DNA of 41,735 bases from Solirubrobacteraceae bacterium (GTDB lineage Bacteria; Actinomycetota; Thermoleophilia; Solirubrobacterales; Solirubrobacteraceae): positions 1 to 41,735 of the forward strand of contig JADGPN010000004.1 in assembly GCA_017882465.1 (NCBI GenBank), read 5' to 3'. The notes beneath the pieces were generated by a model. It saw only the letters and a program-made list of their open reading frames with translations, had not been told where the DNA came from and made no database searches. A program made the position numbers and the translations under genes. Positions 1,795 to 15,081 of the stretch are shown one piece after another; the stretch's first letter is position 1; every line of letters begins with the position of its first letter.

Positions 1795-2349
1795 CTACCG
1801 GTAGCGGCCCGGCTCCCACAACGGCTCGTCGCCGCCATTGGCCCCGCGGCTGAGGATGAACAGCAGATCCGAGAGGCGGTTGAGGTAGCGGATCACCTCG
1901 GGGTTGAGCTCCCCGGCGCACGCGATGGCCAGGCGCTCGGCGCGGCGGCAGACGGTGCGGCACACGTGCAGGTGCGCGGCCGCCGGGGTGCCGCCCGGAA
2001 GCACGAATGACTTCAGCGGTGCGAGCGTGGCATTGACCTCGTCGCATCGCGCCTCGAGCCAGGCGGTCTGCTCGGGCAGCACGCGCAGTCGCTCGCGCGC
2101 GGGGTCCTCGGGGGCCGAGATGTCCGCCCCGACGTCGAACAGGTCGTTCTGGATCCGCCGCAGCCAGTCCGCATAGTGCTCGGGCATCGGCTCGACTGTG
2201 AGCGCCAGGCCGATGTGCGAGTTGAGCTCGTCGACCGTCCCGTAGGCCTCGATCCGCGGATGGGTCTTCGGCACCCGGCTCATGTCTCCCAGGTGCGTCT
2301 CGCCGGAATCGCCGAGCCGCGTGTAGATCCGCGTCAGGTTGATCGTCAT
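1795..2349 (-). CDS. pduO: PduO-type ATP:cob(I)alamin adenosyltransferase
   Basis: Transfers adenosyl from ATP to cob(I)alamin, giving coenzyme B12 in the cytoplasm. The 184-aa product has the family's N-terminal TRxGDxGxT-type ATP loop (IYTRLGDSGETHL), the EAYGTVDELNSHIG motif, the FVLPGG segment, and the C-terminal RTVCRRAER plus YLNRLSDLLFILSR helices that form the trimer active site. The frame is open further upstream, but ATG 2349 matches the family start. It is preceded by GAGGAG and by a TAGACT -10 on the same strand. The gene diverges from the B12-riboswitch operon, so adenosylation is encoded beside uptake. Length fits the family (about 180-200 aa). Confidence 0.95.
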   Translation of the reverse strand: MTINLTRIYTRLGDSGETHLGDMSRVPKTHPRIEAYGTVDELNSHIGLALTVEPMPEHYADWLRRIQNDLFDVGADISAPEDPARERLRVLPEQTAWLEARCDEVNATLAPLKSFVLPGGTPAAAHLHVCRTVCRRAERLAIACAGELNPEVIRYLNRLSDLLFILSRGANGGDEPLWEPGRYR

Positions 2350-2409: not shown

Positions 2410-2415
2410 TATGAT
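2410..2415 (+). promoter_or_regulatory. Candidate -10 element for the B12 uptake operon
   Basis: TATGAT lies about 12 nt before the first paired base of the cobalamin riboswitch. A start at about 2422 would place the aptamer at the very 5' end of the mRNA. No clear -35 is seen 17 bp upstream. Confidence 0.5.
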
Positions 2416-2425
2416 GCCGCCGTCA

Positions 2426-2577
2426 AAGGTCGGTGGTGATGGGAAGCCGGTGAAAGTCCGGCGTGGACCCGCCACTGTGATCGGGGACGCCAGCCGCATT
2501 GCAAGCCACTGGGCGAATCTCACACCCGGGAAGGCGCGGCCGGTCGGCCCGTAAGCCAGGAGACCAGCCTCCGACCG
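2426..2577 (+). ncRNA. Cobalamin riboswitch
   Basis: This is an adenosylcobalamin-class aptamer. The outer P1 stem GGTCGG (2428-2433) pairs with CCGACC (2571-2576). Inside it are the conserved GGGAAGCCGGTGAAAGTCCGG block (2441 onwards), GCCACTGTGATC (2471 onwards), the CCCGGGAAGGC arm and the B12 box AGCCAGGAGACC (2554-2565). It sits 37 nt before ATG 2615, and a GGAAAGGGG ribosome-binding site (2596-2604) lies just downstream, so control of translation initiation is likely. In known examples ligand binding represses expression, which fits an uptake operon that opens when B12 is scarce. Confidence 0.96.
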
Positions 2578-2614
2578 CAAAGCCGAAGCCCTCGTGGAAA
2601 GGGGTGGCTCACAC

Positions 2615-3310
2615 ATGAAGCGCAGACCAATCCTCGCCGCAGGCGGAGCGACTCTCGCCTTGGCCCTCATCTCCTCAACCGTCGCGCTCGCCGCGGCCGG
2701 CCCCAAGGTGACCGTCCGCATCGAAGGCAGGACGCGCGCCCTGCTGGCGCCGACGTTGGTGCGGACGCGCACGGGCTCGATCACCCACAACGGTGCGCCG
2801 CGGGGCGCGTGCCCGGAGACGAGCGCCGCCGGCGTCCTCGACACGGCGGCCCATCATCGCTGGAGCGGCACGTTCGGCTCCTTTGGGATCCCCGATTACT
2901 TCATCACCTCGATCCTGGGTGACACCGAGAAGAGCAAGGCGTACTACTGGGGCATCTGGATCGACAACCGCTTCGCCACCACCGGCGCGTGTGAGATCAA
3001 GCTGCACTCGGGCGACCGCCTCCTGTTCGCGGTCGATTCCATCTCTCACCACGAGCACCCGCTGAACCTCACGGGTCCCGCGGTCGCCCGCGTGGGCCAC
3101 TCGTTCTCGGTCAAGGTCGTCTCGTTCAGCGACTCCGGGGTGGCCAAGCCGCTGCGCGGCGCGCATGTTCGCGGCGCCGGGCCGACCGCGACCACCAACA
3201 GCCACGGGGTCGCCACGCTCACGGCCACCCACACGGGCACGCTGGCGCTCCGCGCCGACCGCAGCGGGTACATCCGCGCCACGCCGCTGAGCATCCGGGT
3301 CACTCTGTAG
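2615..3310 (+). CDS. Secreted DUF4430 (transcobalamin C-terminal-like) protein
   Basis: First gene of the riboswitch operon, 231 aa. Residues 1-28 form a signal peptide (basic MKRR, hydrophobic core, ALA cleavage region). The middle resembles the DUF4430 fold, the family of the C-terminal beta domain of transcobalamin and intrinsic factor: YYWGIWIDNR (110-119), then a GD-containing strand LHSGDRLLFAVD (130-141). Cys66 and Cys126 could form a disulfide. Residues 150-231 look like an Ig/carboxypeptidase-regulatory-like beta domain (NSHGVATLTA repeat end). ATG 2615 is chosen over an in-frame GTG at 2594 because a GGGG-containing ribosome-binding site lies about 10 nt upstream. No membrane anchor is visible, so it may be released or held by partners. 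The role in cobalamin capture is inferred from fold and riboswitch. Confidence 0.8.
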   Translation: MKRRPILAAGGATLALALISSTVALAAAGPKVTVRIEGRTRALLAPTLVRTRTGSITHNGAPRGACPETSAAGVLDTAAHHRWSGTFGSFGIPDYFITSILGDTEKSKAYYWGIWIDNRFATTGACEIKLHSGDRLLFAVDSISHHEHPLNLTGPAVARVGHSFSVKVVSFSDSGVAKPLRGAHVRGAGPTATTNSHGVATLTATHTGTLALRADRSGYIRATPLSIRVTL

Positions 3311-3329
3311 TGGTCGCTCCCGCGAGCGC

Positions 3330-4256
3330 GTGAGCCCCATCGTCCGCATCGCGCTCGCGACACTGGCCGTGATCGGTGTCGCGGGCTGCGGGCTGGGCCC
3401 CGGTCGCGGAACCTCCGACGTCAGCCTGACCGTCACGCGCAGCTTCGGCGCCGGTCAGGTCGGCGCAATCACGGTGCACCAGGTGCCCGGCGCCGAGACC
3501 GTGATGCGCATGCTGCAGCGCTCGTTCGAGGTGACGACGCGCTATGGCGGCGGCTTCGTCGAGTCGGTCAACGGCCACTCCGGCGGCTCATCGCACCTCG
3601 ACTGGTTCTACTACGTCAACGGCGTCGAGGCGGCGGCCGGGGCCGCCGGCACCAGCGTGCACCGCGGCGACCGGATCTGGTGGGACCTGCACAATTGGAG
3701 CGCGACCAACAGCATCCCCGCTGTCGTGGGGTCCTACCCCGAGCCGTTCGTGCACGGTGTTGGCGGCAAGCGCCTGCCGGTCACGCTCGAGTGCGCTGCC
3801 GAGGTCAACGCGGCGTGCGACAAGGCCGCCGCCGCGCTTACCGCGGCGGGCGTTCCGCTGGCGCGCCAGTTCATCGGCACCGGCTCGGGCCCGGACACGA
3901 TCGGCGTGGTGGTCGGCACGTGGCGTGAGGTGAGCGGGCAGGTCGCCTCGGCTCTGATCGCCCGCGGGCCGTCGGCCAGCGGCGTCTACGCGCGCTTCAG
4001 CGGTCTCGATGGCAGGGCGCTCGAGCTGCTCGATCCCCATGGCCGGCCTGTGCGCACGCTCGGCGCCGGTGCCGGGCTGGTGGCCGCCACCGGCGATCAC
4101 ATCTCGGAGCCGACGTGGCTGATCACCGGCACCGACCCGGCCGGCGTCCTGGCCGCGGCCGCGGCTCTGACGCCAGGCCGGCTGCGCAACCATTTTGCGC
4201 TCGCCGTCCACCGGAGCAGCGATGTCCCGGTACCGGTACAGGGGCCGGCGGGGTGA
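3330..4256 (+). CDS. DUF4430-domain lipoprotein, putative cobalamin-binding component
   Basis: 308 aa from GTG 3330. The signal peptide ends in a lipobox, VAGC, with Cys20 as lipidation site, so the protein is predicted to be tethered to the outer face of the membrane. Residues 30-125 are a good DUF4430 match: a TVMRML helix, the YGGGFVESVNG strand, DWFYYVNGVEA (91-101) and GDRIWWDLHNW (113-123). These are the hallmark positions of the transcobalamin/intrinsic factor C-terminal domain. The remaining 170 residues form an extra alpha/beta region (LPVTLECAAEVNAACDK onward) that I do not recognise. It lies 19 bp after the first DUF4430 gene and overlaps the next start by GTGA, so it is translationally coupled to the permease. 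Confidence 0.82.
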   Translation: MSPIVRIALATLAVIGVAGCGLGPGRGTSDVSLTVTRSFGAGQVGAITVHQVPGAETVMRMLQRSFEVTTRYGGGFVESVNGHSGGSSHLDWFYYVNGVEAAAGAAGTSVHRGDRIWWDLHNWSATNSIPAVVGSYPEPFVHGVGGKRLPVTLECAAEVNAACDKAAAALTAAGVPLARQFIGTGSGPDTIGVVVGTWREVSGQVASALIARGPSASGVYARFSGLDGRALELLDPHGRPVRTLGAGAGLVAATGDHISEPTWLITGTDPAGVLAAAAALTPGRLRNHFALAVHRSSDVPVPVQGPAG

Positions 4257-5113
4257 GCTACCGCCGGCTGGCGAGCCCGCTCCACGCCGCCCGCGCCGGC
4301 GCCGGCTGCGCCTACTGCCTGGCGCTGGCGTGCGCGGCCCTGCTGGCCGAGCACCCGATCATGCTGGCGGCGGTGACGCTGGCGATCGCGGGCGCCGGGT
4401 GTGCCGCCGGAGTGGGCCGCGAGCTTCGCCGCGCCGCCCTGTTCGCGATTCCGTTGGCCGTGATGATCGTGCTCGTCAACGCATTCGTGAGCCGCGACGG
4501 GCTCACGGTACTCCTCCGCCTCGGCCAGCTGCCGGTGCTGGGGCACACCGACATCACGCTCGAGGCCACCGCCTACGGCGCCATCCTCGGCCTGCGCGCA
4601 GTGGCGCTGATCCTGTGCGGGGCGCTGTACACCGCAGCGGTCGACCCCGACGAGGTGCTGCGGCTGTTCCGGCGCGTCTCGTTCCGCTCCGCCCTGACTG
4701 CGACCTTGGCCACGCGGATGGTGCCGGTGCTGGTGCGTGACGCCCGGCGCTTGGCCGATGCGCAGCGCTGCCGGCCGGGCAAGCCGCCCTCGCGCCTGGC
4801 CCTGATGCGCGCAGCCAGCAGCGGCGTGCTCGACCGCGCCCTTGACGTGGCCGCGGCGCTCGAGGTGCGGGGCTACGGCTCGGCGCACCGACCGCCGCGG
4901 GCAAGGCGGCCATACTCCCGCCACGACGTAGCCTTCGCCGCCGCCGCCGCCGCGATCGTGATGCTCTCGGTCGGCGCGCGTGCGACCGGGGCCGCTCCCT
5001 TCCACGCCTATCCGTCGCTGTATTCGCCGGCCGGCTCCGGAGTGCTCGCGATCGCGGCCGCGCTCCTGGCCTGCGCGCTGGCCCCGTTCGCCGACCGCAG
5101 GGGGATCGGATGA
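4253..5113 (+). CDS. ECF transporter T component (EcfT/CbiQ family)
   Basis: Transmembrane coupling subunit linking the S component to the ECF ATPases. 286 aa from GTG 4253, which overlaps the previous stop (GTGA). There are about five or six hydrophobic segments. The cytoplasmic coupling-helix region carries the two characteristic basic motifs: RDARRLADAQRCRPG and, later, ALEVRGYG (the Ala-Arg-Gly type motif that docks on the ATPases). The frame is open further upstream inside the lipoprotein gene, but those codons encode a low-complexity shadow, so the coupled GTG is preferred. The riboswitch suggests cobalamin as cargo rather than Co2+. There is no CbiM or CbiN nearby. Confidence 0.88.
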   Translation: MSYRRLASPLHAARAGAGCAYCLALACAALLAEHPIMLAAVTLAIAGAGCAAGVGRELRRAALFAIPLAVMIVLVNAFVSRDGLTVLLRLGQLPVLGHTDITLEATAYGAILGLRAVALILCGALYTAAVDPDEVLRLFRRVSFRSALTATLATRMVPVLVRDARRLADAQRCRPGKPPSRLALMRAASSGVLDRALDVAAALEVRGYGSAHRPPRARRPYSRHDVAFAAAAAAIVMLSVGARATGAAPFHAYPSLYSPAGSGVLAIAAALLACALAPFADRRGIG

Positions 5114-6759
5114 CGAGCGTCCTGCGCGTCGAGCATCTGAGCTACAGCTATCCCGGCGCCGAGCGGCCGGCGGTCCGCGATCTCTCGCTGGAGATCTCGG
5201 CTGGAGAGCTGGTCGTGCTGGCCGGCGCGTCCGGGTCGGGCAAGTCGACGTTGCTGCGGGCGGCGAGCGGCCTCGTGCCCCATTTCTACGGCGGTGAGAT
5301 CGCCGGGCGCGTGACCGTGGCCGGGATGGACACCCGCGAGCACGGCCCAGGCGAGCTGGCCTTCGCCGTCGGCACCCTGTTTCAGGATCCCGAAACGCAG
5401 GTCGTGATGGGCACCGTGCGCGCGGAGCTGGCCTTCCCGCTCGAGAACCGAGGCGAGAGCGGCTCCGCCGTCGCCAGGGGAGTGGAGGAGACCGCCCTGG
5501 CGCTCGGGATCAGCCACCTGCTCGACCGGTCCACGAGCGAGCTCTCCGGGGGCGAGCTTCAGCGGGTGGCGCTGGGGGCGGCGCTGGCCGGCCGCCCCGC
5601 GCTGGTCGTCCTCGACGAGCCCACCTCCCAGCTCGATCCTGTCGCGGGCGACGAGCTGATCTCCCTGCTGCGCCGGTGCAACGAGGACGCCGACACGACC
5701 ATCGTGCTGGCCGAGCACCGCCTCGAACGCTGTCTGTCGGCCGCCGACCGCGTGATCGCGCTCGTGGACGGCGAGATCGCCTGCGACGCTGATCCGGCCG
5801 ACTTTCTGCGCTGGGCGGCGCTCGGCGCCCCGGAGCTCCAGACCCCCGGTGCCCGGCTGCTGGCCGGAGCCGGATTGCCCGCGGCGGTCGGGGTCAAGCC
5901 CGCGCGCGCTGCGTTGCGCGAGCGCGGTCTGCTGCCCGACCCCCGGGCCGCCGGCAGCGCGCCTGCCCAGGGCGAGGATCGGCGCCGCGGCCGGCCGAGG
6001 CGGGTTACGCGGCCGCTCCGCGGCCGGGAGCGGAGCGCCGAGCCGGCGCTGGCGCTGGCTCGGGTGTGGCACGAGCTCCCCCGCGGTCCGGCGATTCTCC
6101 GTGACGCCTCGCTCGTGCTGATGGCCGGCGAGCACGTGGCGCTGATGGGGCGCAACGGCGCGGGCAAGTCGACGCTGCTCAGGCACGCCGCTGGTCTGAT
6201 GCGCCCCACGCGGGGCAAGGTGCAGAGCGCCGGCCGCGTGGCGCTGCTGCTGCAGAACCCCACCGACTACCTGGTCCACGAGACGGTGGCCGCTGAGGCC
6301 TCGGTTCATTCGCTGGCCGCCGTCGGGCTGTCGAGCGCCGCTTTCGCCGGGCGCAACCCGCGCGACCTCTCGGGCGGCGAGCGGCAGCGCCTGGCCCTGG
6401 CGATCGTGCTCGACGATCCGGACGGTCCTCCCGCCGTGGTGTGCCTCGATGAACCCACCCGGGGCATGGATCGGGGGCGCAAGGGAGAGCTGGCGGAGCT
6501 CTTGGCCGAGATGCCCGCCGCCGTGCTGGTGGCCACCCACGATCCCGAGTTCGTGGCCGCATTCGCCGATCGCGTCGTGCTGCTCGCCGATGGGGCTCCG
6601 ATCGCCGACGGGCCTGCCGCGGACGTGCTCGCCGGCGGAACCTATTTTGCCACCGAGACGGCCCGCATCCTGGGTGGCGCCGGCGGGGCGCTGCGGCCCG
6701 AGGAGGGCGTGGCCCTGATCGCCGGCTCGCTGCAGACCGAGGCGGTGACCGCCCGATGA
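5110..6759 (+). CDS. Fused double ECF ATPase (EcfA-EcfA')
   Basis: 549-aa cytoplasmic ABC ATPase with two nucleotide-binding domains in one chain. Domain 1 has Walker A GASGSGKST (39-47), Q-loop FQDPETQ (91-97), signature LSGGE (145-149) and Walker B with LDEPT (168-172). An Arg/Pro-rich linker spans about 245-310. Domain 2 has Walker A GRNGAGKST (347-355), signature LSGGE (420-424) and Walker B LDEPT (446-450), with a switch His in ATHDPEF. All catalytic elements are intact in both halves. ATG 5110 overlaps the permease stop (ATGA). It powers the ECF importer together with the T subunit upstream and the S subunit downstream. Confidence 0.95.
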   Translation: MTSVLRVEHLSYSYPGAERPAVRDLSLEISAGELVVLAGASGSGKSTLLRAASGLVPHFYGGEIAGRVTVAGMDTREHGPGELAFAVGTLFQDPETQVVMGTVRAELAFPLENRGESGSAVARGVEETALALGISHLLDRSTSELSGGELQRVALGAALAGRPALVVLDEPTSQLDPVAGDELISLLRRCNEDADTTIVLAEHRLERCLSAADRVIALVDGEIACDADPADFLRWAALGAPELQTPGARLLAGAGLPAAVGVKPARAALRERGLLPDPRAAGSAPAQGEDRRRGRPRRVTRPLRGRERSAEPALALARVWHELPRGPAILRDASLVLMAGEHVALMGRNGAGKSTLLRHAAGLMRPTRGKVQSAGRVALLLQNPTDYLVHETVAAEASVHSLAAVGLSSAAFAGRNPRDLSGGERQRLALAIVLDDPDGPPAVVCLDEPTRGMDRGRKGELAELLAEMPAAVLVATHDPEFVAAFADRVVLLADGAPIADGPAADVLAGGTYFATETARILGGAGGALRPEEGVALIAGSLQTEAVTAR

Positions 6760-6784
6760 CCACCCCGACCGCAAGGAGGCCCGC

Positions 6785-8542
6785 GTGAGCTGGCAACTCG
6801 GCTCGTTCGCGATCCTCGGACTCGCGCTCGTGGGCGGGTTCGGCTGGTACGAGCGCGCGCGGCCCTCGGCTCGCATGGTCGCGCTCGTGGGCACGCTGGC
6901 CGCGTTCGCCGCGCTCGGCCGGATCGCCTTCGCGGCACTGCCCAACGTGAAGCCGACCACGGATATCGTGCTCATCTCGGGCTACGCGCTCGGCGGCGCC
7001 CCCGGATTCGTGGTCGGAGCGCTCGCCGGTCTGACGTCGAACTTCTTCTTCGGGCAGGGTCCCTGGACGCCCTGGCAGATGGCCGCCTGGGGCCTGACCG
7101 GGGTGCTCGGCGCGGGTGTGGCCATCGCCGGCGGGCGCCGTCTCGGACGATGGCCGCTGGCGATCGTGTGCGCGATCGCTGGCTTCGCGTTCGCGGCGGT
7201 CCAGGATCTCGGCGACTGGGTCACCTACAGCGACCACAGCGCCGCCCAGCTCAGGATCTATGTCGGCAAGGGAATCGGATTCGACTGCATCCACGCCGCC
7301 GGCTGCCTCCTGTTCGCGCTGGCCTTCGGACCGGCCCTGGCGCGAGCGCTGCGGCGCTTCGCCGCTCGGCTCGAGGTGACCTGGCTGCACCCCCCGGGCC
7401 CCCGCCCGGCCGCCCGGGCGGGGCTGCTGCCGGCGACCCTGCTGGCGGTGATCGCGGCCGGCGCCGGCGGCCTCGCCGTGCCCGGCGGGGCCAGGGCGGC
7501 AACGCTGTCCGGCTATCTGCTCGGGGCTCAGCAGAGCGACGGCGGCTTCGGGCCCGCCCCGGGCCAGCCCGCCAACGCGCTTGACACCGGATGGGCCGCG
7601 CTGGGCCTGGCGGCCGAGGGTCACAACCCGCTCGACGTCAGCCGCGCCGGCCACAGCGTGCTCGACTACGTGCGCGGTGGGGTCGGCTCGCTGAGCGACG
7701 CCGGGGCGCTCGAGCGCACGATCCTCGTCGTCGGAGCGGCCGGTCAGCCGGCCGCGGACTTCGGCGGCCATGACCTCGCGTCCGCTCTGCGGCGCCGGAT
7801 CCGCCCCGACGGCTCGGTGGCCGACCAGGTCAACCTGACCGCGTTCGCGGTACTCGCGCTGCGGGCCGCCGGTGTGGCCCCAGGCTCGCGCACGCTGTCC
7901 TGGCTCGTGCACCAGCAGGACGGCGACGGTGGATTCAACTTCGCCACGGCCGGCGATTCGAGCGATGCCGACGACACCGGAGCCGCGCTCGAGGCTCTGG
8001 CCCGCGCCGGCGGCTCGGCCGTGCGGGCCCGCTCGCGGGCGGTCAGGTTCCTGCGCAGCGCACAACAGCGCGACGGCGGGTTCGCCGCCCAGCCCGGAGG
8101 GGAATCCAACGCCCAATCGACGTCCTGGGCCATCCAGGGCCTGCTGGCGGCCGGTGTCGATCCCGGCTCGCTGCATCGCGGCGGGGCGACCTCGCCGCTC
8201 GGCTTCATCCAGTCCCTGACGGCGCCGGACGGCCACGTGCGCTACTCCCGCTCGAGCGACCAGACGCCGGTGTGGGTGACCGCCGAGGCGGCGATGGCGC
8301 TCGCGGGCCGGCCGCTTCCGCTCGCCGCCGTGGCCCGTCAGCCAGCCCCGGTCACGGCCGTCGCCCGGGCCGCCTCCGCGACGCGTGGTCGCACGCGCTC
8401 GCGGGTAGCGCACCCGTCCCGGAGGGCCGCCGCCGCCGCCGTCGTCGCTCATCACCGGTCGGCAACACCCGCCATGCTCGAGCTCGCCACCGGGTTCGCG
8501 ATCGCCACCGCGCTGGCGCTGGCACCGGTCGGTGTGAGCTGA
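6785..8542 (+). CDS. ECF substrate-binding S component fused to an extracytoplasmic alpha/alpha-toroid domain
   Basis: 585 aa from GTG 6785, preceded by AAGGAGG (6773-6779). Residues 1-195 form about six TM helices typical of ECF S components, with the conserved-looking FFFGQGPWTPWQMAAWG stretch (87-103) and LGDWVTY (142-148); B12-type S components (CbrT-like) are the closest idea. TM7 (about 212-235) leads out of the membrane. Residues 240-510 carry prenyltransferase/squalene-cyclase-type repeats: QQSDGGFG (249-256), QQDGDGGFN (377-385), QQRDGGFA (427-434), each followed by a DTGWAAL-, DTGAALEAL- or STSWAIQGL-type helix. A basic linker and a last hydrophobic helix (565-582) follow. The toroid matches the fold of the N-terminal alpha domain of intrinsic factor. 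S-component identity and B12 specificity are inferred from context and riboswitch. Confidence 0.82.
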   Translation: MSWQLGSFAILGLALVGGFGWYERARPSARMVALVGTLAAFAALGRIAFAALPNVKPTTDIVLISGYALGGAPGFVVGALAGLTSNFFFGQGPWTPWQMAAWGLTGVLGAGVAIAGGRRLGRWPLAIVCAIAGFAFAAVQDLGDWVTYSDHSAAQLRIYVGKGIGFDCIHAAGCLLFALAFGPALARALRRFAARLEVTWLHPPGPRPAARAGLLPATLLAVIAAGAGGLAVPGGARAATLSGYLLGAQQSDGGFGPAPGQPANALDTGWAALGLAAEGHNPLDVSRAGHSVLDYVRGGVGSLSDAGALERTILVVGAAGQPAADFGGHDLASALRRRIRPDGSVADQVNLTAFAVLALRAAGVAPGSRTLSWLVHQQDGDGGFNFATAGDSSDADDTGAALEALARAGGSAVRARSRAVRFLRSAQQRDGGFAAQPGGESNAQSTSWAIQGLLAAGVDPGSLHRGGATSPLGFIQSLTAPDGHVRYSRSSDQTPVWVTAEAAMALAGRPLPLAAVARQPAPVTAVARAASATRGRTRSRVAHPSRRAAAAAVVAHHRSATPAMLELATGFAIATALALAPVGVS

Positions 8543-8596
8543 TCGTGACCAGCAGCGGCACGTCACATGCGCTCAACCGATAGCCTCCCGCGGCGC

Positions 8597-9724
8597 ATGA
8601 AAATCGGAGTGCCGAAAGAGACGGATGCTGGGGAGCGTCGGGTGGCGCTGGTGCCTGAGGCCGTGAAGAAGCTCGTGGCTCAGGATTTGGAGGTGCTGGT
8701 GCAGCGGGGCGCGGGGGATGGTGCGCTGATCCCGGACTCGCTGTATGAGGATGCCGGCGCGAGGCTGGCGGAGGAGTCGGCGGTGTGGGACGCGGATGTG
8801 ATCGTCAAGGTGGCGCCCCCGAGCGCGGAGGAGACGACGCGGCTGGGGCCCGAGAGCGTGCTGATCGGTTTCCTGGCGCCGTTGTCGAATGGTGAGGGCG
8901 TGCGGGCGATCGCCGGGTCGGGCGCCACGAGCTTTGCTCTGGAGGCGGTGCCGCGGATCAGCCGCGCGCAGTCGATGGACGCGCTGTCCTCGCAGTCGAA
9001 CGTGGCCGGTTATCGGGCCGCGTTGCTGGGTGCTCAGGAGATGGGGCGCTTCTATCCGATGCTGATGACGGCGGCAGGCACGATTCGCCCGGCGACGGTG
9101 CTGGTGCTGGGTGCGGGTGTGGCGGGGTTGCAGGCAATCGCGACGGCGCGCCGGTTGGGTGCGGTGGTGCAGGGGTTTGACGTGCGCGCGGCGGTGAAGG
9201 AGCAGGTGGAGAGTTTGGGCGCGCATTTTCTGGAGTTCGATCTGGGTGGTGATCTGGAGGGCGCGGGCGGTTATGCGAAGGAGCTGACCGCGGAGCAGCA
9301 GCTGCGTCAGCAGGAGTTGATGGCGGAGGCGATCGGCAAGGTGGATGTGGTGATCACGACCGCTCTGGTGCCGGGCCGCCGGGCGCCGATTCTGGTGACT
9401 GAGGAGGCGGTGAAGCGGATGAAGCCGGGATCGGTGATCGTCGATCTGGCCGGCGAGGCGGGTGGGAACTGCGAGTTGACCGAGCCGGGGGAGACGGTGA
9501 TCAAGTACGGGGTGAAGATCGTCGCGCCGCTGAATTTGGCCTCGACGATGGCCGAGCACGCCTCGCAGCTGTATGCGCGCAACATCCAGTCGCTGCTGGA
9601 GCTGATGATCTCCGAGGGCGCGCTGAAGCTCGACTTCGACGACGAGATCATCGCCGGCGCGTGCGTCACCCGCGGCGGTGAGATCGTCCACGAAGGCGCC
9701 AAAGCCGCGGCCGGCGCCCAGTAG
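8597..9724 (+). CDS. pntAA: NAD(P) transhydrogenase alpha subunit, NAD(H)-binding part (PntAA)
   Basis: Soluble dI domain of the proton-translocating transhydrogenase, which moves hydride from NADH to NADP+ using the proton gradient. 375 aa starting MKIGVPKE, the standard alanine dehydrogenase/PNT N-terminus. ATG 8597 fits the family; an in-frame ATG at 8567 adds ten unlikely residues. Visible motifs are RRVALVPE, the SQSNVAGYRAA segment, a Rossmann glycine motif VLGAGVAGLQA, and the C-terminal SLLELMI region. TAGCCT lies 10 nt before the start and no SD is seen. Codons are rich in G- and T-ending forms up to about 9600 and then switch to C-ending ones. Confidence 0.97.
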   Translation: MKIGVPKETDAGERRVALVPEAVKKLVAQDLEVLVQRGAGDGALIPDSLYEDAGARLAEESAVWDADVIVKVAPPSAEETTRLGPESVLIGFLAPLSNGEGVRAIAGSGATSFALEAVPRISRAQSMDALSSQSNVAGYRAALLGAQEMGRFYPMLMTAAGTIRPATVLVLGAGVAGLQAIATARRLGAVVQGFDVRAAVKEQVESLGAHFLEFDLGGDLEGAGGYAKELTAEQQLRQQELMAEAIGKVDVVITTALVPGRRAPILVTEEAVKRMKPGSVIVDLAGEAGGNCELTEPGETVIKYGVKIVAPLNLASTMAEHASQLYARNIQSLLELMISEGALKLDFDDEIIAGACVTRGGEIVHEGAKAAAGAQ

Positions 9725-9744
9725 CACGAGGAGGCGAGACAGCG

Positions 9745-10077
9745 ATGAGCATCGTCACGGATATTGCGATCTTGGTGTTGGCGGCGTTCGTGGGCTTCGA
9801 GGTGATCTCGAAGGTTCCGAATACGTTGCATACGCCGTTGATGTCGGGCACGAACGCGATTCACGGGATCGTGGTGCTGGGCGGGCTGTTGCTGATGCAC
9901 ATCGCGAGCGGGGTGCTGGAGCACGTGCTGTTGGTGATTGCGGTCATGTTCGGGACGATCAACGTGATCGGCGGTTTCCTGGTCACCGACCGGATGCTGG
10001 CGATGTTCAAGCGCAAGCCCGAGCCGGTGGGTGAGGCGGCTCCGAAGGCGGCGGTTGAGGAGGGCGAGGCGGAGTGA
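9745..10077 (+). CDS. pntAB: NAD(P) transhydrogenase alpha subunit, membrane part (PntAB)
   Basis: 110-aa membrane protein forming half of the proton channel (dII). Three hydrophobic helices span about 4-20, 38-58 and 62-83; the loop holding VPNTLHTPLMSGTNAIHGI is the family hallmark. The C-terminus is charged (KRKPEPVGEAAPK). It follows pntAA by 20 bp with GAGGAGGCGA upstream and overlaps pntB by 4 bp (GTGA), so all three genes form an operon. TTG is a frequent leucine codon here, unlike the CTC/CTG-dominated neighbours. Confidence 0.96.
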   Translation: MSIVTDIAILVLAAFVGFEVISKVPNTLHTPLMSGTNAIHGIVVLGGLLLMHIASGVLEHVLLVIAVMFGTINVIGGFLVTDRMLAMFKRKPEPVGEAAPKAAVEEGEAE

Positions 10078-11516
10078 CCTTTTTGGCCACGTCGTTCCTG
10101 CACAAGCAGGCGCTGATCGATTCGCTGTACATCGTCGCGTTCTCGCTGTTCATCTTTGGGCTGAGCCGCTTGACGGGCCCCAGGACGGCGGTGAACGGGA
10201 ACAAGATCGCGGCGGTCGGCATGGCGATCGCGGTGGTCGCGACGCTGCTGGAGCCCGGGGTGCTGGACGGGTCGGCGCCATGGCTGATCGCGCTGGGGCT
10301 CGGCCTCGGCACGGCGGTGGGGATCCCGGCGGCGCTGAACGTGAAGATGACGCAGATGCCGCAGATGGTGGCGTTGTTCAACGGTGTGGGTGGTGGTGCG
10401 GTGGCGTTGATCGCGTGGGTGGAGTTCCGCCATGGCTTCCAGCTCGGCCCTCACGCCGGCGGGGATTGGCCGCTGCGGGTGGAGATTCCGTCGTTGTTCG
10501 CGGCGATCGTGGGGTCGGTGTCGTTCTGGGGCTCGAACATCGCGTTCGGGAAGTTGCAGGAGATCTTGCCCGGCAAGCCGATCAAGCTGCCGGGCCAGTC
10601 GGTGATCAATGCGGTGCTGCTGGCGATCTGCACGATCACGGCGATCATCCTGTGCGCCGGCACGCATTCGCAGGTGCTGTTCTTCTTCGGGATCCTGGTC
10701 GCGGCGGCGGTGTTGGGGAATATGGTGGTGCTGCCGATCGGCGGGGCGGACATGCCGGTGGTGATCTCGCTGCTGAACGCGTTCACCGGGCTCTCGGCGG
10801 CGGCGACCGGTGTGGCGCTCAACAACACGGCGTTGATCGTGGCTGGGATGATCGTGGGCGCGTCGGGTTCGATCCTGACCAATCTGATGGCCAAGGCGAT
10901 GAACCGCTCGGTGCCGGCGATCATCGCCGGCGGGTTCGGCGGCGCCGTCGCGGCCCCGGTCGGCGCCGCGGGCCAGGATGGCGGGACGGTGCGCTCGACC
11001 AGCGCCCAGGACGTCGCGATCCAGCTCTCCTACGCCCGGCTGGTGGTGATCGCTCCCGGATACGGGATGGCGGTCGCCCAGGCCCAGCACGCGGTGCGCG
11101 AGCTCGAGCGGGCGTTGGAGGCCAAGGGCGTGGAGGTCAAGTACGCGATCCACCCGGTGGCAGGGCGGATGCCGGGGCACATGAACGTGCTCCTGGCCGA
11201 GGCCGACGTCCCCTATGACCTCTTGCGGGAGATGGACGACATCAACCCCGAATTCTCTCGCACCGACGTCACCCTGGTCATCGGCGCCAACGACGTCACC
11301 AATCCCGCGGCCAAGAACGAGCCCGGCTCCCCGATCTACGGGATGCCGATCCTCGAGGTCGACAAGTCCAAGGCGGTGATCGTGCTCAAGCGCTCCATGG
11401 CCTCCGGGTTCGCCGGCATCGACAACCCCCTCTTCTACGGCCCCAAGACCGAGCTCCTGTTCGGAGACGCCAAAGCATCCGTCTCCGCTATCACCAGCGA
11501 AGTCCAGGCCCTCTGA
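10074..11516 (+). CDS. pntB: NAD(P) transhydrogenase beta subunit (PntB)
   Basis: 480-aa subunit containing the rest of the proton channel and the NADP(H)-binding dIII domain. GTG 10074 overlaps the pntAB stop. Residues 1-290 hold about eight or nine TM helices, with motifs MPQMVALFNGVGGGA and NAFTGLSAAATGVAL. The C-terminal 180 residues form dIII: APGYGMAVAQAQHAV (NADP dinucleotide loop), IHPVAGRMPGHMNVLLAEA, and the VIGANDVTNPAA and GMPILEVDKSK motifs, all intact. Codon style changes near 10920: G/T-ending codons before, C-ending after. The gene is complete. Confidence 0.97.
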   Translation: MTFLATSFLHKQALIDSLYIVAFSLFIFGLSRLTGPRTAVNGNKIAAVGMAIAVVATLLEPGVLDGSAPWLIALGLGLGTAVGIPAALNVKMTQMPQMVALFNGVGGGAVALIAWVEFRHGFQLGPHAGGDWPLRVEIPSLFAAIVGSVSFWGSNIAFGKLQEILPGKPIKLPGQSVINAVLLAICTITAIILCAGTHSQVLFFFGILVAAAVLGNMVVLPIGGADMPVVISLLNAFTGLSAAATGVALNNTALIVAGMIVGASGSILTNLMAKAMNRSVPAIIAGGFGGAVAAPVGAAGQDGGTVRSTSAQDVAIQLSYARLVVIAPGYGMAVAQAQHAVRELERALEAKGVEVKYAIHPVAGRMPGHMNVLLAEADVPYDLLREMDDINPEFSRTDVTLVIGANDVTNPAAKNEPGSPIYGMPILEVDKSKAVIVLKRSMASGFAGIDNPLFYGPKTELLFGDAKASVSAITSEVQAL

Positions 11517-11541
11517 GCGACTCGCCGCTCCCGCCGCGGCG

Positions 11542-11565
11542 GCCGTGGCCACACGCGCCCACGGC
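11542..11565 (+). terminator. Hairpin after pntB, possible terminator
   Basis: GCCGTGG (11542-11548) and CCACGGC (11559-11565) form a perfect 7-bp GC-rich stem with a 10-nt loop, 25 nt after the pntB stop. No U-tract follows, so it is at best a weak or factor-dependent terminator. Confidence 0.35.
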
Positions 11566-11594
11566 GGTCGGGTCTCCGCAATGGACAGTTTTCA

Positions 11595-11655
11595 GGTGTG
11601 AAGGCGGTCACACGAGCCGGTTGACACTTCATACCGGCACAAGTGCGGATAGAGT
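11595..11655 (+). promoter_or_regulatory. Putative promoter/operator region of the cyclic-nucleotide-domain gene
   Basis: An imperfect inverted repeat, GGTGTGAAG (11595-11603) and CTTCATACC (11627-11635), matches at 8 of 9 positions. TTGACA (11621-11626) overlaps the second arm, and a TANNNT hexamer, TAGAGT, lies at 11650-11655. The 23-bp gap between TTGACA and TAGAGT is too long for a standard sigma-70 promoter, so the exact elements are uncertain. A repressor or CRP-like site is possible. Confidence 0.35.
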
Positions 11656-11763
11656 CGCCTCTCCGAGAACCGAGATCTCGTGGGGACGTGCCCGCGACGC
11701 GGTCGAGCACCGTGGGTGCCGGCGTGCCGCCCCTGTCAACAAACGCGAGCGAGGAGCGACCCG

Positions 11764-12177
11764 ATGGGCATGGACCCCAACCGGCTGAAGGCAATTCCCC
11801 TGTTCTCCGATCTGTCCGACGAGGAGGCCCGGCGCCTGGCCGCCTTCGCCACCGAGACCAGCGCCGCCGAGGGCCAGATCCTGATGAAGGAGGGCGACTA
11901 CTCGACCGAGCTGATCGCAATCGAGGAGGGCAGCGCCGACGTCGAGAAGGGCGGCCAGACGATCGCCTCGCTCCACGCCGGAGACCTGATCGGCGAGATC
12001 GGGCTGCTCAACCGCGAACCGCGGAACGCCACCGTGATCGCGACCTCGCCGATGCGAGTGTTCAAGCTCACGCACTGGGAGATCCGGCGCATGTCCGACG
12101 ACACCGTCCACCGGATCGAGCGGATCGTCCAGGATCGCCTGCAGGCCGGCGTCGCCGATCCCGCGAGCCACGACTAG
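11764..12177 (+). CDS. Small cyclic-nucleotide-binding-domain (CNB) protein
   Basis: 137 aa, essentially one CNB/CRP sensor fold (residues 10-120). It opens with the family's L-FSDLSDEEARRLAAF helix, then the jelly-roll with MKEGDYSTELIAIEEGSADV and the phosphate-binding cassette region GDLIGEIGLLNREPRNATVIA. In classical cAMP sites this cassette reads GExALL...RxA; here Gly-Glu and the RNA(T) arginine are kept. There is no HTH domain, so it is not a CRP-type transcription factor by itself. ATG 11764 has GAGGAG upstream (about 11750). Partner and ligand (cAMP, cGMP or none) are unknown. Confidence 0.85.
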   Translation: MGMDPNRLKAIPLFSDLSDEEARRLAAFATETSAAEGQILMKEGDYSTELIAIEEGSADVEKGGQTIASLHAGDLIGEIGLLNREPRNATVIATSPMRVFKLTHWEIRRMSDDTVHRIERIVQDRLQAGVADPASHD

Positions 12178-12287
12178 TTGGCTCCGGCGTCGGGCGGGCG
12201 TTCGAAAACCCTGCCGCTGATGCCCATCTTGCAGGTCCTCTTCTCGCAAATTACGGCTTTTTGAGCGTCGGTTCTCTCGTGACCGTC

Positions 12288-12296
12288 TGATACCGT
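12288..12296 (+). promoter_or_regulatory. Extended -10 promoter of the c-di-AMP riboswitch transcript
   Basis: TGATACCGT is an extended -10 (TG-N-TANNNT). Transcription would begin at about 12302-12304, exactly at the 5' strand of the riboswitch P1 stem. No clear -35 is visible, as expected for extended -10 promoters. Confidence 0.5.
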
Positions 12297-12299
12297 GCG

Positions 12300-12428
12300 C
12301 GCTGCCGAGTTCCTGGGACAGCCGCCCCAGGGAACGGGGAACCCAATTCATTTGGGGCGAGTCCCGCGGTGATCCGTGGGAAGCGCTTGCGATCAAGCGC
12401 TAGCCCGTCAGCTAACCCCGCAGGCAGA
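12300..12428 (+). ncRNA. c-di-AMP (ydaO/yuaA-type) riboswitch
   Basis: Outer pairing is CTGCC (12302-12306) with GGCAG (12423-12427). The core shows the class landmarks: CGGGGAACCCAATT, TTGGGGCGAGTCCCGC, a variable hairpin (GAAGCGCTTGCGATCAAGCGC) and the near-invariant 3' block GCCCGTCAGCTAACCCCGCAGGC. In actinobacteria this riboswitch typically sits before cell-wall hydrolase genes, as here. Binding of c-di-AMP generally turns expression off. About 30 nt of expression platform remain before the GGAGGAG ribosome-binding site at 12457. Confidence 0.93.
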
Positions 12429-12468
12429 CCAGGCGCGATTGCAAGTCCGAACCCGCGGAGGAGCCGAC

Positions 12469-13425
12469 GTGCTCACTTTCAGCAGGATTCGTCCCCAAAG
12501 CCCGTGCAAGGCCGATCCGGATCGGGTCGTGGCTTGCCCGCGCGCCGAACGTGAACGTGCAATGAACGGCCTGCGACGGATCACGCTCCTGATCGCCCTG
12601 TGCGTGCTCGGCCCCGCCTCCGTGGCGCAGGCCTCCACCGGTGGCGTCGGGGTCGTGGCGCCCCAGGCACCGCGTGGGCTCGCCGAGCCCGCGAAGACCA
12701 CGCTCCAGATCCCGTTCACCCGGACGCTGAGACGCGGGCAGACCGGCTCGGACATCAAGACCCTGCAGACATGGCTCACAGATGTGGGCTTTCAGGTCCC
12801 GGTCGTCGGGGTGTTCGGGCCGATGACCCAGCAGGCGGTCCGCTCCTTCCAGCACGCTCACAATCTGCGCCCCGCCAGCGGCGCTGTCGGCGTCAAGACC
12901 GCGACCGTGCTCTACACGGCGCTGAAGGCGGCCACCAAGTCGGGGTCGGTGCTGGGCGCGGCTCAGGGCGTGGCGTCAACGTCGTGGGTCTTCCCGCTGG
13001 CGCCGAAGTCGCGGGTTCTGCCGCCCAGCGACTGGACGCTCGACCAGGGGGTCGATATCGGCACCGTCAACAACGCCTGCGGCTCGCAGGTGGTCGAGGT
13101 GGCGATCACCTCCGGCACGATCGTCGGCGAGGGCATCGACGGATTCGGCCCCTACGCCCCGATCCTCAAGGTCGACTCGGGCACCTACAAGGGTCGCTAC
13201 ATCTACTACGGCCACGCCGCACCGGCGCTCGTTCCCGTCGGAGCTCACGTGAGCGCCGGCCAGCCGATCGCCGAGGTGGGCTGCGGCATCGTCGGGATCT
13301 CCAGCGCGCCGCACATCGAGATTGGCATCAGTGACGTCGGCGGCGGTCCGTGCTGCCCGTCCTACCAAGAGACGTCACCCGAGATGGACAAGATCGTGCT
13401 CGGTCTCTGGCCGCACGCCCGCTAG
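12469..13425 (+). CDS. Secreted PG-binding domain/M23-like (LytM) protein under c-di-AMP riboswitch
   Basis: Cell-envelope protein probably acting on or binding peptidoglycan. GTG 12469 is chosen for its strong GGAGGAG SD (12457-12463). An in-frame ATG at 12562 without SD would begin right at the signal peptide (MNGLRRITLLIALCVLG... ending AQAS), so the GTG form has a 31-residue n-region extension. A PG_binding_1 domain follows (TLRRGQTGSDIKTLQTWL to the VGVKTATVLY region), then an M23-like beta domain. Its zinc-site motifs deviate: HxGxD reads DQGVD, and the HxH motif reads PHIEIG. YYGHAA keeps its His. A catalytically altered or structural LytM domain is therefore likely. Confidence 0.85.
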   Translation: MLTFSRIRPQSPCKADPDRVVACPRAERERAMNGLRRITLLIALCVLGPASVAQASTGGVGVVAPQAPRGLAEPAKTTLQIPFTRTLRRGQTGSDIKTLQTWLTDVGFQVPVVGVFGPMTQQAVRSFQHAHNLRPASGAVGVKTATVLYTALKAATKSGSVLGAAQGVASTSWVFPLAPKSRVLPPSDWTLDQGVDIGTVNNACGSQVVEVAITSGTIVGEGIDGFGPYAPILKVDSGTYKGRYIYYGHAAPALVPVGAHVSAGQPIAEVGCGIVGISSAPHIEIGISDVGGGPCCPSYQETSPEMDKIVLGLWPHAR

Positions 13426-13518
13426 CCAGGTTGCCTCACGCCCCGGCGGCTACGAACCGCCCTCCGCGCAGCCGGTCCGCGCCTGAACCTCTCACGGCCG
13501 CCCGACCTCTCTGGTCCG

Positions 13519-13524
13519 TACCCT
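13519..13524 (+). promoter_or_regulatory. Candidate leaderless -10 of glpD
   Basis: TACCCT ends 7 nt before ATG 13532 and no SD is present. This fits a leaderless transcript. Confidence 0.45.
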
Positions 13525-13531
13525 GCGCGGA

Positions 13532-15078
13532 ATGCTTTCCCGAGAACGGGCGATCAAGCTCCTGGCTGGTGAGCGCTACGACGTGGTCGTGATCGGCGGC
13601 GGCATCACCGGCGCCGGAGTCGCGCTCGATGCGGCCACCCGCGGCTACAGCGTGGCGCTGGTCGAGAAGGCCGACTTCGCCTCCGGGACCAGCAGCCGCT
13701 CCTCGAAGCTGGTCCACGGCGACATGCTGGTCGGGATCGGCCTGAACATGTACGACGTGATGGCGACGCCCGGACTGCGCGGACGCCGCAGCGCACGGCG
13801 CGCGGCGCTCGACGCCGGCGAGGCGCCGGACGCCGATTGGAGTCCCGAGCGCCACCGGGTGATCTCTGGGGAAGAGGTGCTCGAGCTGTCCCGGCGCTCG
13901 AATCCCGCAACCCTACGGGCGGATATCTGTTCTATGACTGCCAGACCGACGACGCCCGCCTGGTGCTGACCGTCCTCGGCGAGGCCGAGCGCTTCGGCGC
14001 CATCTGTGCCAACCGGCTCGAGGTGATCGAGCTCGTACAGGAGGACGGGAGGGCCGCGGATGTCAAGGTGCGTGATGGGGAAACCGAATCCGAATTCACC
14101 GTGCGGGCCGAGAACGTCGTGAACGCGACGGGGGTCTGGGCCGACCGGATCCGGCCCGAGGAGCTGCACTCCGAGGCCGAGGTGCCGACGATCCGGCCCA
14201 GCCGCGGCACGCACATCACGCTGGATCGATCCGATCTGCCGCTCGTGTCCGGGGCGATCGTGCCCGCGGGCGAGGGCCGGTCGATCTTCGCCCTGCCGTG
14301 GCTGGGACGCAGCCTGGTCGGCACCACCGACAACAACTACGACGGTGACGTCGACCACGTCCAGCCGGCTGCCGACGACGTCGAATACCTGCTCGACGCC
14401 ACCAATGCGTTCTTCGGCACCAGCCTCACGAACAGCAATCTGACCGGCGCCTACGCCGGCGTCCGGCCCTTGATCTCGACCGGGGACACGCGGAAGTCGG
14501 TCGACATCTCGCGCAAGGCCGAGCTGTATGAGACCTCGAGCGGCCTGATCACGATCACCGGCGGCAAGCTGACCACCTGGCGCCGGATGGCCAAGATGGC
14601 GGTCGACCGCCTGGCCGAGCGCGACGGTCGCCAGGCGCCGTGCCGCACGCACGAGATCCCGCTCGGACAGGCGATCGATCCGCAAGGCCTGCCGCGGGTC
14701 GAGGGGGTCCGCGATGACGCCTATGGAGCGCTCGCGTCGCGCTACGGCCACGCGGCCCAGAAGGTGCTGCAGACGGCGGGAGAGCGGGGCGAGCTCGCCC
14801 AGCCGACCGTCGGAGAGCTGCCCGATCTGCTCGCCGAGGCCCCGTTCTCCGCCCGCCACGAACAGGCCCGGAGCGTCGGCGACGTGCTGCTCCGGCGCAC
14901 GCGGCTGGGGCTGCTGGCCGCGCGCGAGCTGTGCACACCGGGGAGCGAGGCGCCGCTGCGGGTCGCTCGGGCGATGGGCCAGGAGCTCGGATGGGACGAG
15001 CGACGAGTTGACGCCGAGGTGGAGCGCTTCCGGCAGGAGGCACGCGCCGAGGGCATCTGCGGACCAGGCGAGGGCTGA
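13532..15078 (+). pseudogene. glpD: Aerobic glycerol-3-phosphate dehydrogenase, internally deleted and frameshifted
   Basis: FAD-dependent oxidation of glycerol-3-phosphate to DHAP, feeding quinone at the membrane. The N-terminus is intact ([14 protein letters not shown] dinucleotide motif, [15 protein letters not shown]). After KLVHG near 13720 the sequence jumps to a segment that normally lies about 50 residues later ([12 protein letters not shown]), so the conserved GGLRYL region is missing. A second lesion near 13888 shifts frame: VLEL continues only if one base is restored before TCCCGGCG, after which [17 protein letters not shown] follows in another frame. The rest (14000-15078) is intact, including GGKLTTWRRMA and the C-terminal DAO_C domain. 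Either a real pseudogene or an assembly/sequencing error. Confidence 0.85.
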
Positions 15079-15081
15079 AAG

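Follow-up and report, generated by a model that had tools for sequence, protein, structure and literature searches.

A cobalamin-riboswitch operon of a Solirubrobacteraceae bacterium encodes a predicted ECF-type B12 importer with two DUF4430 proteins and a toroid fused to its S component

A stretch of 41,735 nt from a Solirubrobacteraceae bacterium (contig JADGPN010000004.1, assembly GCA_017882465.1; hereafter the window) carries, at 2410-8542 on the plus strand, a cobalamin riboswitch followed by five closely packed genes, which encode the parts of an energy-coupling factor (ECF) importer and two exported proteins with a DUF4430 domain. The riboswitch (2410..2586, +) covers model positions 1-189 of 189 of RF00174 with 95.6 bits (E 9.8e-23), against a gathering score of 31.5 bits, and places the operon behind it in the cobalamin regulon. 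The first gene, D1 (2594..3310, +; PF14478, E 3.6e-7), encodes a secreted DUF4430 protein of 238 codons when counted from GTG 2594; the start is more probably ATG 2615, which lies behind a purine-rich stretch. The product begins with a single hydrophobic stretch in which no lipobox was seen by eye, and its C-terminal region gives a weak CarboxypepD_reg-like match under the cut-off (E 0.011). The second gene, D2 (3330..4256, +; PF14478, E 1.6e-12), encodes a DUF4430 lipoprotein of 308 codons with the lipobox VAGC (recognised by eye), whose Cys20 is kept in at least 90% of a 27-row alignment. With 31.0 and 48.1 bits against a gathering score of 23.8, D1 and D2 both belong to DUF4430.

The third gene (4253..5113, +), whose start GTG 4253 overlaps the stop of D2, encodes the transmembrane coupling protein EcfT, with six hydrophobic segments and a match to PF02361 (CbiQ, E 2.4e-13). 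Its end is overlapped by the start of the gene for a fused double ATPase, EcfA-EcfA' (EcfAA; 5110..6759, +), in which PF00005 (ABC_tran) matches two stretches of one chain (whole-protein E 3e-44); the match to TIGR04520 (E 9.9e-78) lies under the equivalog cut-off. A CbiQ-like EcfT and two ABC_tran stretches in one chain identify the pair as belonging to an ECF importer. The last gene, P0005 (6785..8542, +), joins a CbrT-like S component (residues 1-212; 6785..7420, +) to an alpha/alpha toroid (residues about 240-515; 7502..8329, +; PF00432, Prenyltrans, E 5.5e-9 over residues 347-454). Between them lies an additional hydrophobic helix 7 (residues 214-232; 7424..7480, +), which by its hydropathy is probably a membrane helix and leads into the toroid. 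The toroid is followed by an Arg-rich linker (residues 516-566) and a C-terminal hydrophobic stretch (residues 567-585; 8483..8539, +), weak by hydropathy, that may be an anchor. Toroid and DUF4430 (beta) domain thus sit on separate chains in the window, and not on one chain as in a soluble carrier. Divergent from the operon, a PduO-type cob(I)alamin adenosyltransferase gene (1795..2349, -; PF01923, E 3.7e-63; TIGR00636, E 2.4e-53) reads from its start MTINLTRIYT at 2349 down to 1795. An earlier note made from the DNA letters had described a single B12-riboswitch operon with two exported DUF4430 proteins (one secreted, one a lipoprotein), a toroid fused to an ECF S component, EcfT, a fused double ATPase and a diverging adenosyltransferase gene, and profile searches recover every one of these parts.

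The likely substrate can be read from the S component and from the host genome. The S domain stays under the Pfam cut-off (ECF_trnsprt, E 0.0037); it aligns over 165 residues (30-194) with 6fnp_A (E 3.3e-10), from the ECF-CbrT crystal structure 6FNP, and a 21-row alignment contains a conserved GPWTPWQM-like motif, so that by sequence homology it belongs to the CbrT family of S components. CbrT itself has been shown experimentally to transport cobalamin and cobinamide (PMC5997447). The host assembly is 94.95% complete with 4.46% contamination and consists of 757 contigs, a fragmentation that makes absences from it less than absolute. Neither CbiC nor a FecCD/BtuC-type permease was matched in this assembly, and ten matches to B12-binding domains were found, nine of them over the cut-off. 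From these searches the host uses B12 and yet seems to be without at least one corrin-ring enzyme, and the operon is therefore likely to be the B12 importer of the genome, being the sole candidate found in a search that left out other importer types such as BacA and BtuM. Among the 150 of 326 first-look candidates that were scored, one cobalamin riboswitch was detected genome-wide, namely that of the operon itself. We regard the operon as almost certainly a B12-type importer, and a B12 importer with extracellular capture proteins as very likely. B12 as the substrate is well supported computationally, in the broad sense that the present evidence does not distinguish cobalamin from other cobamides.

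The fold of the DUF4430 proteins was addressed with an AlphaFold2 model of D2, built from the 27-row alignment, with a mean predicted local distance difference test score (pLDDT) of 91.3 and a predicted template-modelling score (pTM) of 0.87. Foldseek, run against the PDB, gives transcobalamin 2bb6 as the best match (E 2.0e-4), and the seven matches with E<=1e-3 comprise transcobalamin (2bb6, 2v3n, 7qbe), its isolated beta domain in apo and cobalamin-bound form (5no0, 5np4) and, with two chains, the putative Ruminococcus gnavus metal-binding protein 3u7z. They are followed by intrinsic factor (2pmv, 4e-3) and haptocorrin (4kki, 1e-2); from rank 18 on, carriers are mixed with chains of the cellulose-synthase protein BcsB, and glycosidases follow lower in the list. 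Template-modelling (TM) scores normalised by the whole query are only 0.24-0.27 for the top seven, because the DUF4430 domain makes up only about 100 of the 308 residues; normalised by its own length, the isolated beta domain reaches 0.61. The DSSP string of the model gives strands at 31-37 and 42-49, a helix at 58-65, hairpin strands at 68-71 and 76-80, and strands at 90-96 and 115-122. This is a beta-grasp core with a hairpin inserted after the helix, the hallmark of the transcobalamin-like clade described by Burroughs et al. 2007. On the strength of the model, a transcobalamin beta-domain fold for the DUF4430 domain of D2 is well supported. We regard capture of extracellular cobalamin by the DUF4430 proteins as highly probable. 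The C-terminal half of D2 (3777-4229, +; residues 150-300) is a well-predicted alpha/beta domain, to which we attribute the weaker Foldseek matches (E 4e-3 to 1e-1) to BcsB and to GH67 and GH84 glycosidases; it is possibly a domain for docking to the cell wall or to the ECF complex. Proteins consisting of a DUF4430 domain alone have an animal counterpart in the short Tcn-like proteins of fish genomes (PMC4350170).

The arrangement recurs in relatives, which excludes a chance association of these genes. Matches to all or part of P0005 occur in 87 of 149 genomes sampled from the class, and a cobalamin riboswitch is present in 35 of 40 same-class stretches (L034-L073); the five others are L038, L053 (contig-end truncated) and the toroid-only stretches L058, L065 and L069. 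When genome contigs were scanned with the S alignment, at least 596 candidate stretches were obtained, of which the best 80 loci were kept. These were searched with DUF4430 and toroid profiles, iterated twice on the same loci, and with a riboswitch model (R1) trained on the window and 12 relatives, which probably misses divergent riboswitches, so that its negatives are weak. EcfT was matched in 32 of the 40 and 70 of the 80 loci, and the adenosyltransferase in 10 and 14, respectively, the first adenosyltransferase match in each locus always being on the strand opposite to the operon. Over all 80 S loci, DUF4430 was found in 64, the toroid in 63 and a riboswitch in 53; 20 of these loci have a shorter flank. 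The other 60 have at least 5 kb before S, and there a DUF4430 open reading frame (ORF) lies on the same strand in 59, accompanied by a toroid in 51, while R1 places a cobalamin riboswitch upstream on the same strand in 44 of the 60, or in 47 if any position in the locus is counted.

S and toroid form one protein in 24 of the 80 loci, and in many others the toroid has a gene to itself. Meanwhile, toroid and DUF4430 share one polypeptide in 33 ORFs from 31 of the 80 loci, mostly of Clostridia and Bacilli and in both orders; several run from toroid through a short linker to DUF4430, the order of intrinsic factor and transcobalamin. None of these fusions occurs in the 40 own-class stretches L034-L073. 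The corresponding parts of the window match the halves of the natural fusions in profile comparisons of the toroids (hhalign probability 98.8, E 9.7e-17) and of the DUF4430 domains (E 9.7e-9). In addition, five DUF4430-toroid units each follow their own cobalamin riboswitch (L234, L237, a second unit of L238 and two in L245). The stretches of L234 and L237 contain no S or EcfA match, and the second unit of L238 directly follows an ECF unit. L245 (G111:C4:105000-122000) has, at 6642-15677, two divergent cobalamin riboswitches, each with toroid and DUF4430 genes on its strand, which in one of the two units are about 2 kb apart; no S match was found in L245, and no EcfA match in L073, which covers most of it. 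Lone DUF4430 genes also occur behind a riboswitch (L231, L223). Units of this kind, with a riboswitch of their own, point to a joint job of the two domains in cobalamin handling. From the fusions and the free-standing riboswitch units, we consider a functional link between DUF4430 and toroid well supported by comparative sequence data.

Some relatives depart further from the layout of the window. Two loci of the same phylum contain giant ORFs, with three DUF4430 domains in 1839 codons (L224) and two in 1944 codons (L225); the former adjoins S and ATPase genes, and the L225 stretch gave no S match. In L222 (G305:C1:3652000-3666000, on a contig of 6.9 Mb) the order is A-S-toroid-DUF4430, and R1 gave no riboswitch match.

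The association also holds at the level of whole genomes. Among 296 genomes of the phylum, DUF4430 occurs in 52 and S in 100. A strong S match (E<1e-35, a limit chosen after a gap from 1e-38 to 1e-27 had been seen in the list) occurs in 48 of the 296, and all 48 have DUF4430. Conversely, the 52 genomes with DUF4430 comprise 48 with a strong S, 51 with any S and a single one without (G377, 82% complete). Since the sampled genomes are related, this co-occurrence is to be read as a pattern and not as a p-value. The toroid is less constant: in seven genomes without a toroid near S, it was found elsewhere in three. Archaea of the Thermoplasmatota type (L155, L175, L131) carry DUF4430 beside a CbrT-like S, and no toroid was found in their genomes. 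By these searches, the toroid appears to be dispensable in some lineages.

By sequence, the toroid is of the prenyltransferase/squalene-cyclase type. Both the toroid protein of the window (E 1.4e-23) and the L222 toroid ORF (E 1.7e-32) match the SCO2321 family membrane protein (NF053823, SCO2321_fam); their scores of 83.5 and 112.8 lie under the equivalog cut-off of 300 bits, so that neither is a member by NCBI's rule. Among the matches listed, profile searches against PDB sequences gave cyclases, prenyltransferases and Ig-like domains and no transcobalamin, the animal carriers being reached by fold comparison only, and a phmmer search with a single fused protein gave no match. By hydropathy, the S component shows six hydrophobic segments only once the threshold is lowered to 1.25. 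This hydropathy, together with the chains that the toroid shares with secreted-type DUF4430 domains in relatives, suggests that the toroid lies outside the membrane.

The earlier note had further proposed that the DUF4430 proteins and the toroid jointly sandwich cobalamin outside the membrane and hand it over to S. As a stand-in for such a clamp we modelled the natural fusion of L174 (416 residues, 39-row alignment) with AlphaFold2 without ligand, obtaining a pLDDT of 86.1, a pTM of 0.64 and a linker with pLDDT <50. Haptocorrin, transcobalamin and intrinsic factor account for all of the model's 15 best PDB matches (E 2.4e-10 to 1.0e-6), which cover both domains and outrank any prenyltransferase. 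The model has both folds in transcobalamin order. That a split carrier can work is seen from human transcobalamin, whose alpha and beta domains, expressed apart, assemble only with cobalamin, and whose beta domain alone binds cobalamin (PMC5599065). What stands of the proposal is a B12 substrate, an extracellular DUF4430 protein with the beta-domain fold and the link between DUF4430 and toroid; the closed clamp itself did not appear in the L174 model, and the toroid is missing from four genomes. The joint clamp and a direct hand-over of cobalamin to S are both plausible, and that the toroid serves as the second half of a cobalamin clamp is, in our judgement, somewhat better than an even bet.

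We therefore favour a riboswitch-controlled ECF importer for cobalamin or allied cobamides, with its own ECF module, dedicated capture proteins and a toroid clamp, and put the probability of this reading as a whole at about 0.6. In such a system, low adenosylcobalamin (AdoCbl) would let the riboswitch permit expression of the operon. D1, released, and D2, anchored by its lipid, would pick up extracellular cobalamin through their DUF4430 domains. The helix joined to S would keep the toroid on the outer face, where the toroid would be the counterpart of the alpha domain; a loaded DUF4430 protein would dock on it and place cobalamin above the CbrT-like S. The S component would then receive cobalamin, with EcfT and EcfAA powering inward transport, and the adenosyltransferase would convert the imported cobalamin to AdoCbl. 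In its boldest form, which we hold tentatively and at slightly less than even odds, this would be a naturally split transcobalamin on an importer, with the alpha half welded to S and interchangeable beta halves, a secreted scavenger and a lipoprotein, closing the clamp over the translocation site.

Several observations weigh against this favoured reading. In the L174 model the orientation of the two domains differs from that in transcobalamin, with a root-mean-square deviation of 16-24 A and TM-scores of 0.30-0.39 against whole carriers; we count this as neutral, because the separate human halves join only upon addition of cobalamin. At the sequence level, transcobalamin and intrinsic factor are absent from the 47 PDB matches of the fused-protein profile, from the 5 of the D2 profile and from the best 60 of the 92 of the toroid. 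A one-to-one clamp leaves the two DUF4430 copies unaccounted for. CbrT by itself binds cyanocobalamin with a Kd of 9.2 nM (PMC5997447), so that capture proteins are not strictly needed. As to topology, the lowered hydropathy threshold also flags a stretch inside the toroid (349-367), and a toroid on the outside would put the Arg-rich linker at odds with the positive-inside rule. The comparative data hold contrary cases as well: only 3 of the 52 weak-S genomes have a Pfam DUF4430; the toroid is absent from four of the seven genomes mentioned above (three archaeal, one bacterial) despite S and DUF4430; and no cobalamin riboswitch was found in the two of the three archaeal S and DUF4430 genomes that were searched for one. 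No riboswitch match was obtained for the DUF4430 loci L227, L230, L233 and L235, nor for eight toroid-only loci, of which L058, L065 and L069 were searched with Rfam and R1, and L232, L242, L243, L244 and L246 (the last truncated at a contig end) with R1 only.

Some of these observations would be accommodated if the DUF4430 proteins handed cobalamin straight to S and the toroid, without binding cobalamin, served to fix the complex to the cell wall or as a docking site for the DUF4430 proteins. The four genomes with S and DUF4430 that lack a toroid fit this explanation, as does the toroid being a separate gene in many relatives, which makes its tethering to S optional. It is nevertheless unlikely in our view, given the 33 fused ORFs, several of them in transcobalamin order with a short linker, and the five DUF4430-toroid units whose own riboswitches suggest a joint cobalamin job. 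Far less probable still is a toroid that acts as an enzyme on a lipid or corrinoid in the manner of a class II terpene cyclase. Squalene-hopene cyclases are its best PDB sequence matches (best 60 of 92 matches), and the window toroid retains a DxDDT motif, DxDD being the catalytic acid motif of class II terpene cyclases. However, the full DxDD is present in only 6 of 27 toroids and the middle Asp in 20 of 27, a lack of conservation that speaks against catalysis, and the setting is one of cobalamin uptake, with a riboswitch in 47 of the 60 S loci with enough flank.

Two other explanations concern the substrate. D1 and D2 might favour other cobamides, cobinamide or a different tetrapyrrole, the system being a general corrinoid scavenger. 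CbrT also carries cobinamide (PMC5997447), human transcobalamin beta binds it (PMC5599065), and Burroughs et al. 2007 allow other ligands (PMC1796856). We think this explanation improbable. That the operon imports cobalt through its CbiQ-like EcfT, instead of cobalamin, might be read from EcfT, for which CbiQ provides the only Pfam and NCBIfam matches. We give this hardly any credence, since the S domain matches CbrT, the Pfam scan gave no CbiM match, an adenosyltransferase gene is adjacent, and, with no CbiC found, the host would have no clear use for cobalt in corrin synthesis.

The neighbours of the operon are a gene for a GGDEF-EAL protein upstream (19-1782, +) and genes for NAD(P) transhydrogenase or alanine dehydrogenase-type subunits (AlaDh_PNT, PNTB; 8567-11516, +) downstream, the latter probably a separate unit. 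Further downstream, a c-di-AMP (ydaO) riboswitch of 57.6 bits (12293-12441, +) overlaps the 5' end of an ORF with a peptidoglycan-binding domain.

The cobalamin importer proposed here has relatives among described systems. Burroughs et al. 2007 described bacterial transcobalamin-like beta-grasp domains that have a toroid fused before or after them, share their operons with another paralogous copy and CbiO/CbiQ, and occur in hosts usually without B12 synthesis (PMC1796856). They predicted that both domains jointly bind or scavenge B12 beside the CbiQ/CbiO transporter, and that animals acquired the domain pair from low-GC Gram-positives (PMC1796856). The window shares with this transcobalamin-like clade of the soluble-ligand-binding beta-grasp (SLBB) domains the kind of extracellular domain, the second copy and the CbiQ/CbiO context. 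In contrast to the clade, in which the toroid is fused to the beta-grasp domain, the window carries its toroid on S and its DUF4430 domains separately. The clade was assigned to low-GC Gram-positives, planctomycetes and euryarchaea, actinobacteria being named once, for ComEA, in the available part of the account, whereas the window is actinobacterial; that part does not name an S component or use the word riboswitch (PMC1796856), and the window has both.

ECF-CbrT of Lactobacillus delbrueckii likewise has a homologous S, an ECF module and a pduO adenosyltransferase in its cluster (PMC5997447). There, one group II module serves several S components, whereas the operon in the window has its own; the solved CbrT chain has 182 residues, and no toroid is mentioned in the available part of that report (PMC5997447), whereas the S of the window carries one. 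Human transcobalamin, intrinsic factor and haptocorrin, the top solved-structure matches, consist of an alpha/alpha toroid and a DUF4430-type beta domain as do the parts in the window, but they are single soluble chains taken up by receptor-mediated endocytosis, whereas the window has separate chains on an importer of the ATP-binding cassette (ABC) type. In the literature searched, which excludes most subscription journals, we found neither the split form with the toroid on S nor an experimental test of the 2007 prediction. Because the family was described in 2007, the operon represents an actinobacterial variant of a predicted family, now tied to a proven S component and to riboswitch control, within which the split, membrane-tethered arrangement looks new.

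As a small riboswitch-controlled operon, it makes the prediction of 2007 directly testable. It also suggests how corrin-auxotrophic actinobacteria compete for B12, and offers a bacterial context in which intrinsic factor and transcobalamin may have originated. If it does encode a split transcobalamin, ECF importers would have gained a stage comparable to the substrate-binding protein of classical ABC importers, and a bacterial transporter accessory would have the animal carriers as its detached, soluble relatives.

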